From: Rhodospirillum centenum SW
GTDB taxonomy: Bacteria; Pseudomonadota; Alphaproteobacteria; Azospirillales; Azospirillaceae
Assembly: GCF_000016185.1 (NCBI RefSeq)
Contig: NC_011420.2
Location: 1,260,501 to 1,324,500, forward strand
Direction: 5' to 3'
DNA: 64,000 nucleotides
The notes beneath the pieces are model-generated. The model was not told the DNA's origin. It did no database searches and saw only the letters and a list, made by a program, of their open reading frames with translations. How positions within the stretch are numbered: position 1 is the first letter of the stretch; each line of letters opens with the position of its first letter. This document shows, one piece after another, positions 2,434 to 51,344 of the stretch. The position numbers and the translations under genes were made by a program.

Positions 2434-2991
2434 ATGTCCATCCCCTCGCACAGCTTCTTCATCGACAGCGCGGACCTCGCCATGGCCCCGTCCCTTCCCG
2501 CCGGCGCGGTGTCCGTGACCGCCGCCGACCTGCCGGAGGCCGCGCGGCCGCTGCTCGATCATGAGCGGGGCATGACCGCGACGCTGGAGGCCGCCTGGGA
2601 CGAGAGGATGGCGCTGGAGGTGCTGGACGCGCACGAAGTCGGGGAATGCCTTGCGCGCACCGTGCTTCTCTATGGCGCCGACAGCGGCCGGCCGGTGGAG
2701 CTGGGCCGGATCGTCATCCACCTGCCCTCCCTGCCGGAGAGCATCCATGAGCCGGTGCGGGGTGGCATCCTGCCCTTCGGTACACTGCTGGCCCAGGCGG
2801 GAGTCGCCTTCCGCAGCCGGCCGGACGGCTTCTTCCGGATTCCGGCCTCCGCCCCCGACCTTGCAGCGCTGCCCGCGCTTGCGGGGTGCGCGGGTGAGCT
2901 GTTCGGGCGCACCGGGCGGGTGACCCGCCTGGACGGCACCCTGCTGGCCGAGGTGACGGAGATTCTGACCGCCCTTCCCGCCCGGGACTGA
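2434..2991 (+). CDS. Chorismate-lyase-like (UbiC/UTRA fold) protein
   Basis: 185 aa, soluble, no signal peptide. The pattern [33 protein letters not shown], then [14 protein letters not shown] and FFRI resembles the chorismate pyruvate-lyase/UTRA fold, in which an arginine and a late glutamate (here in AEVTEIL near the C-terminus) bind substrate. In UbiC this fold cleaves chorismate to 4-hydroxybenzoate for ubiquinone. Whether this divergent member does so cannot be told: several alphaproteobacterial relatives have no known role. Start ATG 2434 has only a weak ribosome site. It is transcribed away from rpsB and runs toward dnaE, ending 27 bases from it. Confidence 0.6.
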
Positions 2992-3018
2992 CCGTCGCAG
3001 CGGCCGTCGCTGCCGCGC

Positions 3019-6516
<3,498 letters not shown>

Positions 6517-42880: not shown

Positions 42881-42965
42881 TGGTGCGGGCGGAGGGACTT
42901 GAACCCACACGTCTTTCGACACTGGAACCTAAATCCAGCGCGTCTACCAGTTCCGCCACGCCCGC
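42881..42965 (-). tRNA. tRNA-Leu (TAG)
   Basis: 85 bases with the long variable arm of class II tRNAs (GTGTCGAAAGACGT region). Acceptor GCGGGCG pairs perfectly with CGCCCGC, discriminator A, CCA encoded. Anticodon loop TTTAGGT gives TAG. Just upstream of tig, same strand. Confidence 0.97.
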
Positions 42966-46186: not shown

Positions 46187-47650
46187 TCAGGCGTCGGCCT
46201 TCAGCCGGCGCAGCACCGCAGGCAGCGCCTCCGGCAGATCCTCGGCGATCAGGCCGGGGCCGACGGCGCGGCCGGCTTCCCCGTGCAGCCAGGCCCCGGC
46301 ACAGGCGGCGTCGAACCCGTCCATGCCCTGCGCCAGCAGCCCCACGATCAGCCCGGCCAGCACGTCGCCGCTGCCGGCCGTCGCCAGATCGGGCGGCGCG
46401 TTGGTGGTGACGGCGGCGCGGCCGTCCGGATGCGCCACCACCGTGTCCGCCCCCTTCAGCAGCACGACGGCGCCACAGGCGCGCGCGGCGGCACGGGCGC
46501 GATCCAGCCGGCTGCCCGGCAGGGGGCCGAACAGGCGGACGAATTCGCCGTCGTGCGGGGTCAGCACCCAGCGGTCGTGCAGCCGCAGGGCCAAGGGCTC
46601 CAGTCCGCCGGCGAAACTGGTGAAGACGTCCGCGTCCAGCACGCCGCTGCGGTCGCGGGCCAGCGCCGCCAGCACGCGGGTCGCCAGCGCCTCGCCCGGA
46701 CCGGCCCCGGGACCGAGCAGGACGGCGTTACGCCGCGGATCGTCCAGCAGCGCCTCGAACGCCGCCCCGTCGGGGGCGGGCAGCACGATGGCCGACGGCA
46801 GGGAAAGGGCGTAGAGCGTCACCGTCTCCGGCGGGGCGGCGATGGTGACCAGCCCGGCCCCGGCCCGCAGCGCGGCCCGCGCCGCCAGCCGGGCGGCCCC
46901 GGTCATGACGGCGCCGCCCAGCACCAGGGCATGGCCGCGGCTGTACTTGTGCCCCTCCGGCCGCGGCCAGGGATAGCGTGCGCCCCAGAGCCGGGGGCCG
47001 TTCTCCCAGGTGCGCGGGGCGATCGCCTCCACCACGCCGTCGGGAATGCCGATGTCCGCCAGCACCACCTCGCCGCAGAGGAGCCGGCCGGGCAGCAGCA
47101 CATGCGCCGGCTTGCGGCGGTGGAAGGTGACGGTCAGGTCCGCCCGCGGCGCACAGCCCAGCACGGCACCATCGTCGCCGCGGACCCCGCTGGGCACGTC
47201 CACCGCCAGCAGCGGCAGGGCGCGGCGCCCGATCTCCCCCACAATGTCGGCTGCGGGACCGTCCAGCGGGCGCGAGAGGCCGGCGCCGAACAGGGCGTCG
47301 ATCACCAGCCCCGCCCCGTCGAGCACGCCGGTCTCCAGCCGCTCCACCGGAGCCGTCCAGCCCGACGCCGCCCATGCCGCGTCCCCCCGGAGCGCCGCGA
47401 CCTCCCCCAGCAGGGCCAGCCGGACAGGCCAGCCCCGCTCCGCCAGGAGGTGGGCCGCCACGAATCCGTCACCGCCATTGTTCCCGGGACCGCAGAGAAC
47501 GGCGACCGGACAGGGCGACCAGCGGGCCAGCGCAGCCGCGGCCACCGCCGCGCCCGCCCGCTCCATCAGGACGGGTCCGGGCACCCCGGCGGCCATCGCC
47601 GCCCGGTCGGCCCGGCCCATCTCCGCCACGGTCAGCAGTTCGTCCGCCAT
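46187..47650 (-). CDS. nnr: Bifunctional NAD(P)HX epimerase / ADP-dependent NAD(P)HX dehydratase
   Basis: Repairs hydrated NADH and NADPH. 487 aa, two domains. The N-terminal epimerase (YjeF_N, about 1-210) has GPGNNGGDGFVAAHLLAERG and LLAVDVPSGVRGD. The C-terminal ribokinase-like dehydratase (about 220-487) has HKYSRGHALVLGG, LTPHDGEFVRLFG and the conserved AGSGDVLAGLI. ATG 47650. Downstream of sbtA-sbtB by 33 bases; in alphaproteobacteria this gene often neighbours glnB, and here the sbt pair separates them. Confidence 0.95.
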   Translation of the reverse strand: MADELLTVAEMGRADRAAMAAGVPGPVLMERAGAAVAAAALARWSPCPVAVLCGPGNNGGDGFVAAHLLAERGWPVRLALLGEVAALRGDAAWAASGWTAPVERLETGVLDGAGLVIDALFGAGLSRPLDGPAADIVGEIGRRALPLLAVDVPSGVRGDDGAVLGCAPRADLTVTFHRRKPAHVLLPGRLLCGEVVLADIGIPDGVVEAIAPRTWENGPRLWGARYPWPRPEGHKYSRGHALVLGGAVMTGAARLAARAALRAGAGLVTIAAPPETVTLYALSLPSAIVLPAPDGAAFEALLDDPRRNAVLLGPGAGPGEALATRVLAALARDRSGVLDADVFTSFAGGLEPLALRLHDRWVLTPHDGEFVRLFGPLPGSRLDRARAAARACGAVVLLKGADTVVAHPDGRAAVTTNAPPDLATAGSGDVLAGLIVGLLAQGMDGFDAACAGAWLHGEAGRAVGPGLIAEDLPEALPAVLRRLKADA

Positions 47651-47683: not shown

Positions 47684-47992
47684 TCAGAAGTGGTCGGCGC
47701 GGACCACTTCCACATCCGAAAGATAGACGATGCCGGTGTAGTTCTCCAGCAGAGCGTGTATCTCTGCCAGCAGGGTGCGGGCGAGGTCCTCATGCGCGAT
47801 CACCAGGATCATGACGGTGCGGTAGGTGTCGAACACCTCCCCGCCGCCCATCATCCCCCGGTGGCCCTGGCCGGACACGTCGGGGATCAGGGTATAGCCG
47901 GTCGCCCCCAGCTCGCGGATGCGACCCAGGATGGTGGGCGCCCGCGCCCGCTCGACGACGATCTCCACCCGCTTGCGCCGATGCGTTTCCAT
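47684..47992 (-). CDS. sbtB: PII-like signalling protein, SbtB type
   Basis: 102-aa ferredoxin-like PII-fold protein, partner of the bicarbonate transporter just upstream. It aligns over its length with cyanobacterial SbtB: ELGATGYTLIPDVSGQGHRG (beta2 and T-loop base) and ENYTGIVYLSDVEVVRADHF (end). SbtB proteins bind adenyl nucleotides and gate SbtA. This one stops exactly where cyanobacterial SbtB continues into the C-terminal redox loop CGPEGC, so that switch is absent. It also lacks the uridylylated tyrosine of GlnB. ATG 47992, 10 bases after sbtA; the pair is one operon, with nnr 33 bases further on. Confidence 0.8.
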   Translation of the reverse strand: METHRRKRVEIVVERARAPTILGRIRELGATGYTLIPDVSGQGHRGMMGGGEVFDTYRTVMILVIAHEDLARTLLAEIHALLENYTGIVYLSDVEVVRADHF

Positions 47993-48002
47993 GCTGGCCT
48001 CC

Positions 48003-49013
48003 TCAGACGAAGCCCAGAGCGCGGGCCGCCGCGAAGTAGAGCGGAATGCCCACGACCACGTTGAAGGGGAAGGTTATCACGAGCGACAGCGTGACATAGA
48101 CGGCCGGATTCGCCTGCGGCAGGGCCAGCCGCATGGCCGCCGGCACCGCGATGTAGGAGGCACTGGCCGTCAGCACCGCCAGCAGCGTGGCCCCGCCCAG
48201 CGACAGGCCCAGCAGCCAGGCCGTCCCCAGCCCCGCCGCCGCCCCCAGGAGCGGCATGTAGAGGCCGAAGGCCAGCAGCGGCGCCGACAGGGCCTTGACG
48301 CTGCGGAGCTGGCGCGCGGCCACCAGTCCCATGTCCAGCAGGAACAGGCAGAGCACGCCGTTGAAGATGTCCGCCACGAAAGGCTTCACCATGAGCATGC
48401 CGCGCTCGCCGGTGGCCCAGCCGATCAGGAATCCGCCGACCAGCACCACGACGCTGGCGTTCAGCAGGATCTCGCGCAGCAGCTCCTGCGACAGGAAAGC
48501 GTCCTTGCGGGCGGCCCCGGGCACCGTTCCGCCCTGGCGTGCCAGGGCACGGCGGGCGAGGAACAGGCCGCTGACGATGGCCGGTGTCTCCATCAACGCC
48601 ATCATGGCCACGAGGTAGCCTTCGTAGCCGATTCCCTGTCCGGTGACGAACTGGCTGCCGGTGACGAAGGTGACGATGCTGATGGACCCGTAATGCGCCG
48701 CCACGGCGCCGGCATCCACCGGGCCGATGCGGGTCAGGGCGCGCAGCAGCGCGTAGGCCAGGAAGGGCAGCGCTGCGCTGAGCAGCAGGGCCGCGAGCAT
48801 GGCGGCGACGACGCCCCCGCCCGCCCCGTTGGCGGCCAGGGCTGCGCCGCCTTTGAAGCCGATGGCGAACATCAGATAGATCGCCAGGGCACGCCCCACG
48901 GCCTCGGGAATGTCGAGGTCAGAGCGCGCCACCGCCGCAGCGAAACCCAGCGCGAAGCTGAGCACCATCGGCGAGATCAGATTGGTCAGTCCAAGCTGGA
49001 TGAGGTCCGACAT
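48003..49013 (-). CDS. sbtA: Sodium-dependent bicarbonate transporter, SbtA (DUF897) family
   Basis: 336-aa inner membrane protein with about ten TM helices in two inverted halves (first LISPMVLSFALGFAAAVARS; later VADIFNGVLCLFLLDMGLVAARQL). Conserved polar stretches AAHYGSISIVTFVTGSQF and TASASYIAVPAAMRLALPQ match the Na+/bicarbonate-binding core of SbtA. In cyanobacteria it feeds carbon concentration; here it may supply carboxylases. The frame is open far upstream over tRNA-His; ATG 49013 gives the family start. With sbtB 10 bases downstream, function assignment is well supported. Confidence 0.85.
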   Translation of the reverse strand: MSDLIQLGLTNLISPMVLSFALGFAAAVARSDLDIPEAVGRALAIYLMFAIGFKGGAALAANGAGGGVVAAMLAALLLSAALPFLAYALLRALTRIGPVDAGAVAAHYGSISIVTFVTGSQFVTGQGIGYEGYLVAMMALMETPAIVSGLFLARRALARQGGTVPGAARKDAFLSQELLREILLNASVVVLVGGFLIGWATGERGMLMVKPFVADIFNGVLCLFLLDMGLVAARQLRSVKALSAPLLAFGLYMPLLGAAAGLGTAWLLGLSLGGATLLAVLTASASYIAVPAAMRLALPQANPAVYVTLSLVITFPFNVVVGIPLYFAAARALGFV

Positions 49014-49100: not shown

Positions 49101-49177
49101 TGGGGCGATGGATGGGACTCGAACCCACGACCACTCGGACCACAACCGAGGGCTCTACCAACTGAGCTACCATCGCC
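49101..49177 (-). tRNA. tRNA-His (GTG)
   Basis: 77 bases counting the extra 5' G (-1) typical of tRNA-His, which pairs with the C discriminator. Acceptor GCGATGG pairs with CCATCGC; anticodon loop TTGTGGT, anticodon GTG; CCA encoded. Between sbtA and glnB. Confidence 0.97.
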
Positions 49178-49404: not shown

Positions 49405-49800
<396 letters not shown>

Positions 49801-49934: not shown

Positions 49935-51344
49935 ATGTCCGATCTCAGCAAAGTCTTCGACCTGATCAAGGAGCACGACGTCAAGTACGTCGACTTCCGC
50001 TTCACCGATCCGCGCGGCAAGCTGCAACACACCGCCCAGCACGTGAGCACGGTCGACGAGGACATGTTCGCCGACGGTGTGATGTTCGACGGCTCCTCGA
50101 TCGCCGGCTGGAAGGCGATCAACGAGTCGGACATGACCCTGATGCCGGATGTCTCCACGGCCGTCATGGACCCGTTCTCGGCCCAGCCGCTGCTGACGGT
50201 CTTCTGCGACGTCTACGAGCCCTCAACCGGCCTGCCCTACAAGCGCGACCCGCGCTCCATCGCCAAGGCCGCCGAGCGCTACATGGCCTCGACCGGCATC
50301 GGCGATACGGCCTATTTCGGCCCGGAGGCCGAGTTCTTCGTGTTCGACGACGTCAAGTTCGACGTCTCGATGAACCGGGTGATGTACGAGTTCGACAGCG
50401 AGGAAGGCCCCTACACCTCGGGCAAGGCCTATGAGGGCGGCAACCTCGCCCACCGCCCGGCGGTGAAGGGCGGCTACTTCCCGGTGCCGCCGGTCGATGC
50501 CGGCCAGGACCTGCGCGCCGAGATGCTGAGCGTGCTCGCCGACATGGGCGTCGAGGTCGAGAAGCACCACCACGAGGTCGCGGCCTCGCAGCACGAGCTG
50601 GGCGTCAAGTTCGGCACGCTCGTGAAGATGGCCGACGGCATGCAGCTCTACAAGTACGTCGTCCACAACGTGGCGCACGCCTACGGCAAGACGGCGACCT
50701 TCATGCCGAAGCCGGTCTTCGGCGACAACGGTTCGGGCATGCACTGCCACCAGTCGATCTGGAAGGACGGCAAGCCGATGTTCGCCGGGTCGGGCTATGC
50801 CGACCTGTCCGACACCGCGCTCTACTACATCGGCGGCATCATCAAGCACGCCCGCGCCCTGAACGCCTTCACCAACCCGACGACCAACAGCTACAAGCGT
50901 CTGGTCCCGGGCTACGAGGCGCCGGTGCTGCTGGCCTACTCCTCGCGCAACCGCTCGGCCTCCTGCCGCATCCCCTACGTGACCAGCCCGAAGGGCAAGC
51001 GCGTCGAGGTCCGCTTCCCGGATCCGGCGGCCAACCCGTACCTGGCCTTCGCCGCCATGCTGATGGCCGGCCTGGACGGCATCCAGAACAAGATCCATCC
51101 GGGCGACGCGATGGACAAGAACCTCTACGACCTGCCGCCGGAGGAGCTGAAGGAGGTTCCGACCGTCTGCCGCGGCCTGCGCGAGGCGCTGGACAGCCTG
51201 GATGCCGACCGCGAGTTCCTGAAGAAGGGCGACGTCTTCACGGACGACTTCATCAACGGCTACATCGACCTGAAGATGGAGGAGACCCTGGCGTTCGAGA
51301 CCTCGCCGCACCCGATCGAGTACAAGATGTACTACTCGGTGTGA
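49935..51344 (+). CDS. glnA: Glutamine synthetase, type I
   Basis: Makes glutamine from glutamate and ammonia; dodecameric. 469 aa. N-terminal beta-Grasp ([21 protein letters not shown]), catalytic domain with [15 protein letters not shown] metal site and [15 protein letters not shown], and the adenylylation tyrosine in [13 protein letters not shown], so it is of the GlnE-regulated class. It lies 134 bases after glnB; no clear separate promoter is seen, so both likely share the sigma-54 promoter. A strong terminator follows. Confidence 0.98.

Follow-up and report, generated by a model that had tools for sequence, protein, structure and literature searches.

The two adjacent genes described here, which lie in a 64,000-nucleotide stretch (the window) of the genome of the purple photosynthetic bacterium Rhodospirillum centenum SW, probably form an operon for Na+-coupled bicarbonate uptake that is checked by its own PII-like protein. 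Among their relatives the genes belong to a recognisable transporter family and branch, keep a common order, are found in the company of inorganic-carbon and Na+/H+ genes, and show no association with RuBisCO. By its sequence, the transporter is a member of a widespread branch of the Sbt_1 family that stands apart from SbtA1, the cyanobacterial type represented in our trees.

Table 1. Features of the locus, in order of their positions in the window.
Feature	Position	Strand	Basis and remarks
nnr, NAD(P)H-hydrate epimerase/dehydratase	46187-47650	-	YjeF_N + Carb_kinase (Pfam and NCBIfam); other edge of the interval
PII-like gene, presumably regulating the transporter	47684-47992	-	102 aa; Pfam P-II PF00543, E 7.5e-18
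sbtA-like gene	48003-49013	-	336 aa; putative Na+-dependent bicarbonate transporter of the Sbt_1 family, non-cyanobacterial branch; Pfam PF05982, E 3.6e-113
Ala289 codon (Slr1512 Ser327)	48147-48149	-	Putative bicarbonate ligand, replaced; alignment
Ser286 codon (Slr1512 Ser324)	48156-48158	-	Putative bicarbonate ligand, retained; alignment
Met138 codon (Slr1512 Tyr140)	48600-48602	-	Putative bicarbonate ligand, replaced; alignment
Ser112 codon (Slr1512 Ser114)	48678-48680	-	Putative bicarbonate ligand, retained; alignment, role from PMC8352866
tRNA-His (GTG)	49101-49176	-	ARAGORN; Rfam tRNA, 65.1 bits; conserved edge of the variable interval holding the pair
glnB, ordinary nitrogen-regulatory PII	49462-49800	+	PF00543, E 6.1e-35; NCBIfam PRK10858, 1.4e-53, below the model cut-off
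glnA	49935-51344		Named from the ORF and likeness to glnA-positioned genes of relatives

A sequence-only reading of this DNA had described a transporter of the bicarbonate family with a dedicated PII-like partner, the two genes being 10 bases apart. Pfam confirms both genes, the gap is indeed 10 bases (47993–48002), and an inorganic-carbon uptake system is supported by the gene company set out below. The tRNA-His gene between the sbtA-like gene and glnB was absent from that reading. glnB is divergent and lies upstream of the pair; nnr lies downstream of the PII-like gene and is not thought to be part of the uptake system.

The match of the transporter to the Sbt_1 profile scores 378 bits against a curated cut-off of 27 and covers profile positions 1–307 of 308. 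Slr1512 (7cye) is its sole match in the PDB (E 5.2e-21), at 26.7% identity, whereas its nearest kin, from the same family, are 68% (L045) and 67% (L043) identical. In a tree of 32 rows the transporter groups with 29 others and is split from Slr1512 and L053 with support of 100/100; L054 was excluded as a fragment, and L055, which had no match, was unused. A quick search on 84 rows, with SH-aLRT support only and the fragments L152 and L175 excluded, separates 73 rows including the transporter from 11 others (SH-aLRT 100). The larger branch is drawn from Pseudomonadota, Planctomycetota, Balneolota, Verrucomicrobiota and Gemmatimonadota; the smaller consists of Slr1512, two SbtAs from cyanobacterial plasmids and eight similar proteins from Alphaproteobacteria.

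The bicarbonate site of Slr1512 is a docking model backed by mutants, of which the alanine mutants of Tyr140 and Ser327 bring activity down to 10–40% (PMC8352866). Two of its four putative ligands, Ser114, Tyr140, Ser324 and Ser327, are kept in the R. centenum transporter. Across 62 rows of the non-cyanobacterial branch, Ser114 is kept in all 61 that are readable at that position, and Ser322 and Ser324 in all 62; Tyr140 has been replaced in every one of the 61 rows readable there, Asp325 becomes Tyr in all 62, and Ser327 is also replaced throughout (Ala in 58, Val in 3, Asp in 1). The Slr1512 letters at the pocket positions are retained in all 11 cyanobacterial-type rows. Since the pocket of the branch differs from that of Slr1512, the substrate cannot be carried over from Slr1512 by residue identity. 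The trees and the pocket, together with a PII-like protein that is closer to 5d4n than to SbtB, contradict the earlier description of the pair as cyanobacterial-style; the phylogeny which that reading had proposed places the transporter outside the SbtA clade, relative to cyanobacterial SbtA.

Some other arrangements were seen in passing. A relative of the same family (G007:C89; L053, 194–3090) carries a cyanobacterial-type SbtA beside a pair of the R. centenum kind (L045); in L053 the PII-like gene is on the opposite strand from the cyanobacterial-type SbtA, with a beta-carbonic anhydrase gene between them. On the Acaryochloris plasmid pMB01 (L089), genes for cation:proton antiporters come after a cyanobacterial sbtA and a PII-like gene. 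Searches of viral contigs gave 1 and 0 relatives, and on a contig filed as viral (L086, IMGVR_UViG_3300019828_000708) an Sbt_1-like reading frame at 2953–3925 is split in two in the ORF list. A plasmid search with the PII-like protein gave no match.

In the PDB the PII-like protein matches 5d4n first (residues 5–99, E 7.3e-10), followed by 3dfe and cyanobacterial SbtB. Its reported alignment with SbtB along its length is borne out, residues 10–102 aligning with SbtB of Cyanobium 7001 (6mm2; E 1.1e-5), but 5d4n, which we take to be CPII of Thiomonas, scores better. The protein belongs to the PII fold family and its gene adjoins sbtA, two features that it shares with SbtB. A C-terminal CGPxGC redox loop, which only some SbtB proteins conserve, is absent, the chain terminating in VVRADHF, and the alignment shows no cyanobacterial SRxxR pattern in the T-loop. 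In a first PII tree it falls outside a 17-row clade (99/99) that contains cyanobacterial SbtB. That clade also includes 14 PII partners of transporters from the non-cyanobacterial branch (other phyla and some proteobacteria); it thus mixes partners of both branches, and PII type and transporter type do not correspond one to one. A further mismatch, L194, is seen in a second PII tree (103 columns, deep forks weak; the divergent or short L186, L192 and L193 excluded). There, five DabA-linked PII-like proteins form one clade with 5d4n (100/99.7), in the same weakly supported half (79/95) as the R. centenum protein. CPII is the best solved relative of the R. centenum protein by sequence, but groups with the DabA-linked ones, which share a T-loop stretch, ...EGxLxFN[DE]..., that the SbtA-linked proteins do not have.

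The company of these genes was surveyed by running a profile of nine PII-like proteins, with PF05982, PF00016 and PF10070, on 385 alphaproteobacterial genomes. PII-like rows of at least 39.3 bits were kept; the next row scores 31.4 bits, and several weaker rows beside nnr resemble glnB. Two of three fragment rows of the G100 Sbt_1 gene and RuBisCO matches below 300 bits were dropped before counting. The 58 PII-like matches retained, in 54 genomes, all adjoin a candidate partner, 53 an Sbt_1 gene and five DabA; without the two survey genomes that contributed to the query profile, the figures are 51 and 5 of 56. Forty-seven of the 53 Sbt_1 pairs are on the same strand, with 20–93 bases between profile matches, and six are tail to tail; the 46 genomes with same-strand pairs represent 30 family codes (hand count). 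The cyanobacterial-type signature occurs in seven of the 53 (L195–L201), comprising all six tail-to-tail pairs and one on the same strand. Such a PII is not found beside 24 of the 77 Sbt_1 rows. At loci from other collections the PII gene lies beside SbtA in 15 of 16 cases, the sixteenth having only 290 bases upstream.

Each of the five DabA-linked PII-like genes (L187–L191; G062, G195, G067, G292 and G073) directly follows DabA, is encoded on the same strand and has a DabB-like ORF nearby; a Pfam check covered the DabB-like ORF in two of the five and DabA in one. Three of these genes, all from a single genus, are almost identical, and the five thus amount to three family-level lineages.

Flanking genes were compared between 51 loci with same-strand pairs (787,102 bases), of which 45 belong to the survey and six come from elsewhere, and 40 control windows taken from genomes of the same kind (640,040 bases); the pair locus of G069, at a short contig end, is not among the 51, and the same-strand pair of G181:C99 was assigned to the cyanobacterial-type set. 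NhaA is found at nine of the 51 pair loci and in none of the 40 controls (p=0.004), always at most 1.3 kb from sbtA and in six family lineages; MnhB is found in two pair flanks and no control. Beta-carbonic anhydrase alone is not significantly enriched (4/51 against 1/40, p=0.38). Taken together, NhaA, MnhB or beta-carbonic anhydrase occur at 15 of 51 pair loci and in one of 40 controls (p=0.0006), or in two controls if one weak Mrp-like match is counted (p=0.003). Unguided clustering of the flanking ORFs had surfaced NhaA and beta-carbonic anhydrase before the targeted search; it also gave ABC ATPases and LysR regulators, which we regard as background. DabA is commoner in genomes with the pair (14/46 against 34/339, p=0.0004). 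The distances among SbtAs and among PII-like proteins are correlated (r=0.75 over 48 pairs; 0 of 2000 permutations), these shuffles, like the Fisher tests, ignoring the relatedness of the genomes.

A link between the pair and carbon fixation was rejected. RuBisCO matches above 300 bits occur in three of 46 pair genomes and 22 of 339 others (p=1), and when all matches over the family cut-off are taken, including RuBisCO-like proteins and fragments (hand count), there is again no difference (6/46 against 43/339). Four of the six same-family genomes with a pair of the R. centenum kind have RuBisCO and two are without it. In the R. centenum genome, where a check for RuBisCO and carboxysome genes had been proposed, profile search finds two RuBisCO large-subunit genes; the accessible text of the genome paper likewise gives the organism two RuBisCO forms (PMC2890560). 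Carboxysomes found no such support, PF00936 shell proteins having no match in the 100% complete genome while control genomes did match. The genome has one beta-carbonic anhydrase (PF00484), and DabB- and DabA-like genes lie about 20 kb outside the window (G000:C1:1236809-1240841; L243 3810-7842), without a PII-like gene of the SbtA-partner kind, of which there is only one match in the genome. Neither NhaA, Mrp nor beta-carbonic anhydrase is found within the 17 kb examined around the pair. The terms bicarbonate, carboxysome, carbonic anhydrase and Sbt do not occur in the main text of the genome paper (PMC2890560). This inventory suggests that R. centenum has two systems for inorganic-carbon uptake and no carboxysome.

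With cyanobacterial SbtA1/SbtB (Slr1512/Slr1513) the pair shares the Sbt_1 superfamily, presumably with ten helices, a PII-like partner gene directly downstream, and the equivalents of Ser114 and Ser324; it differs in its 27% identity and separate branch, in having Met, Tyr and Ala for Tyr140, Asp325 and Ser327, in a partner that lacks the CGPxGC loop, and in a genome without a carboxysome shell match. Cyanobacterial SbtA2 with SbtB2 or SbtB-like proteins, compared by description only, resembles it in being a second subfamily of Sbt_1 that has a PII-like partner to itself; bicarbonate uptake in E. coli has been reported for SbtA2-family proteins, as have binding to the PII-like SbtB2 and a chloride dependency (PMC13249358, citing Rourke 2026a, Selim & Alva 2024). 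Two Thiomicrospira Sbt transporters rescue carbonic-anhydrase-less E. coli, according to the accessible text of PMC12628692, and both reports agree with an inorganic-carbon reading. SbtA is recorded across autotrophs and heterotrophs in PMC10880623, in the available portion of which PII does not occur. AmtB-GlnK also joins a membrane transporter to a dedicated PII regulator encoded alongside, but its transporter is unrelated and serves nitrogen rather than carbon. The DAB/DAC system (DabA-DabB) shares inorganic-carbon uptake, with five of the 58 PII-like matches adjoining DabA, but is unrelated machinery.

We infer the substrate, the direction of transport, the Na+ coupling, the binding of the PII-like protein and its ligands. 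By analogy with Slr1512, SbtA would be an elevator-type symporter. A trimeric PII-like protein, to judge from SbtB and 5d4n, may read adenine nucleotides and perhaps bicarbonate, and, once the cell has enough inorganic carbon or energy, would insert its T-loop into the cleft on the cytosolic side of SbtA. In R. centenum this could provide cytosolic bicarbonate/CO2 for RuBisCO and PEP carboxylase, without a carboxysome and beside the DabAB system; in most carriers, which are without RuBisCO, the bicarbonate may instead feed the carboxylation steps of anaplerosis and biosynthesis. Despite the changed pocket, the DabA-linked relatives, the Na+/H+ antiporters and the DabA-bearing genomes favour a transporter that is driven by Na+ and has inorganic carbon as its substrate. 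The replacement of Tyr140 and Ser327 by Met and Ala, the R. centenum locus itself, where no NhaA, Mrp or beta-carbonic anhydrase was found, and the 24 of 77 Sbt_1 rows that stand without such a PII count against this explanation.

The best reason for doubt on the bicarbonate reading is the work on formate in Shewanella, where mutation of an Sbt_1 protein, SO_3758, confers tolerance of formate; in Zymomonas the wild-type protein does so too, and the authors lean to efflux (PMC12093963). By the residues named in that paper it has the same SASYIA stretch as the R. centenum branch, and its membership of the branch is suggested by these residues rather than by its own sequence. The branch might then move another small anion, such as formate, or work chiefly in export or as a pH valve, bicarbonate being a secondary substrate, as pocket residues unlike those of Slr1512 and the missing RuBisCO link would allow. 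We consider this unlikely: the same PII-like family also lies beside DabA, DabA genomes are enriched among the carriers, the NhaA company fits Na+-driven import, and Thiomicrospira Sbt proteins, which may be of another branch, raise internal inorganic carbon (PMC12628692).

Bicarbonate could also be transported while the PII-like protein acts as a free cytosolic sensor of carbon or energy and does not gate the transporter. Regulation of SbtA by light in Synechococcus 7942 reportedly does not require SbtB (cited in PMC8352866), and the T-loop is without the SRxxR pattern, but the adjacency of 53 of 58 survey matches to Sbt_1, the correlated divergence, and the finding that co-expressed SbtB inhibits SbtA in four out of five pairs from cyanobacteria (PMC4275256) make such an arrangement rather improbable. 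Hardly credible is a true cyanobacterial-type SbtA/SbtB pair transferred from cyanobacteria, for which superfamily, gene order and a PII-like partner of near-equal length might speak. Transfer is largely refuted by the trees (100/100 with 32 rows, SH-aLRT 100 with 84) and by identity, which is 26.7% to Slr1512 against 68% to L045 of the same family. The pocket signature, moreover, differs in all readable rows, third-position GC of the pair (0.88–0.89) is like that of nnr and glnB (0.89–0.92), and the Alphaproteobacteria that do carry the cyanobacterial-type signature (L053, L195–L201) are a separate set.

Among PII-controlled systems for bicarbonate uptake SbtA-SbtB serves as the model, and it is also a candidate in the engineering of crops. 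If PII-checked bicarbonate uptake by the R. centenum pair is correct, a second and commoner branch, mostly in RuBisCO-less genomes, would make PII-gated bicarbonate uptake a general bacterial function, and the structurally known 5d4n protein would gain a candidate partner in DabAB. It is possible, and we offer it tentatively, that a single PII-like family acts as a brake exchangeable between two unrelated machines, the Na+/bicarbonate symporter of this branch and the DabAB pump, its T-loop being reshaped to suit each partner and 5d4n (CPII) being the DabA-linked form, and that the alphaproteobacterial module is mainly for RuBisCO-less organisms that need bicarbonate for ordinary metabolism. 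In the open-licence literature we found nothing on a PII-like partner of Sbt_1 in Alphaproteobacteria or on PII-like proteins beside DabA. A PII gene near a dab operon has been noted in chemolithoautotrophs, and a thesis title points likewise, so the DabA link is not claimed as new.

The site that holds the pair is variable among relatives. nnr was matched in 31 of 34 genomes, and nnr and glnB share one locus of at most about 4.5 kb in 13 of 20 other same-family genomes, in keeping with the earlier remark that they are often neighbours in this group. The tRNA-His gene adjoins nnr in 15 relatives, with a gap of 71–185 bases in nine and 492–1321 in six. The longer gaps (L057, L064, L071, L072, L074 and L078) hold genes other than sbtAB: two have HpcH/HpaI aldolases, two YjbR proteins, one an ORF that matches nothing in Pfam, and one a 2OG oxygenase match that is weak and falls below the cut-off. 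Thus sbtAB is one among several occupants of an interval that varies. The suggestion of acquisition or retention at this site is partly right; the interval is short in nine of the 15 relatives and holds other genes in six. Integration at the 3' end of tRNA-His with flanking repeats was rejected, the sole direct repeats found being within sbtA, and a promoter and terminator scan, with 0 promoter-like sites, was uninformative. No glnB neighbours any of 50 other pair loci; its neighbourhood here looks incidental, and the significance given to a carbon-sensing PII placed beside GlnB falls away. A tRNA-Leu(TAG) gene at window positions 42881–42965 (minus strand) stands a few kb from nnr, as one does in several relatives (L062, L063 and L064).
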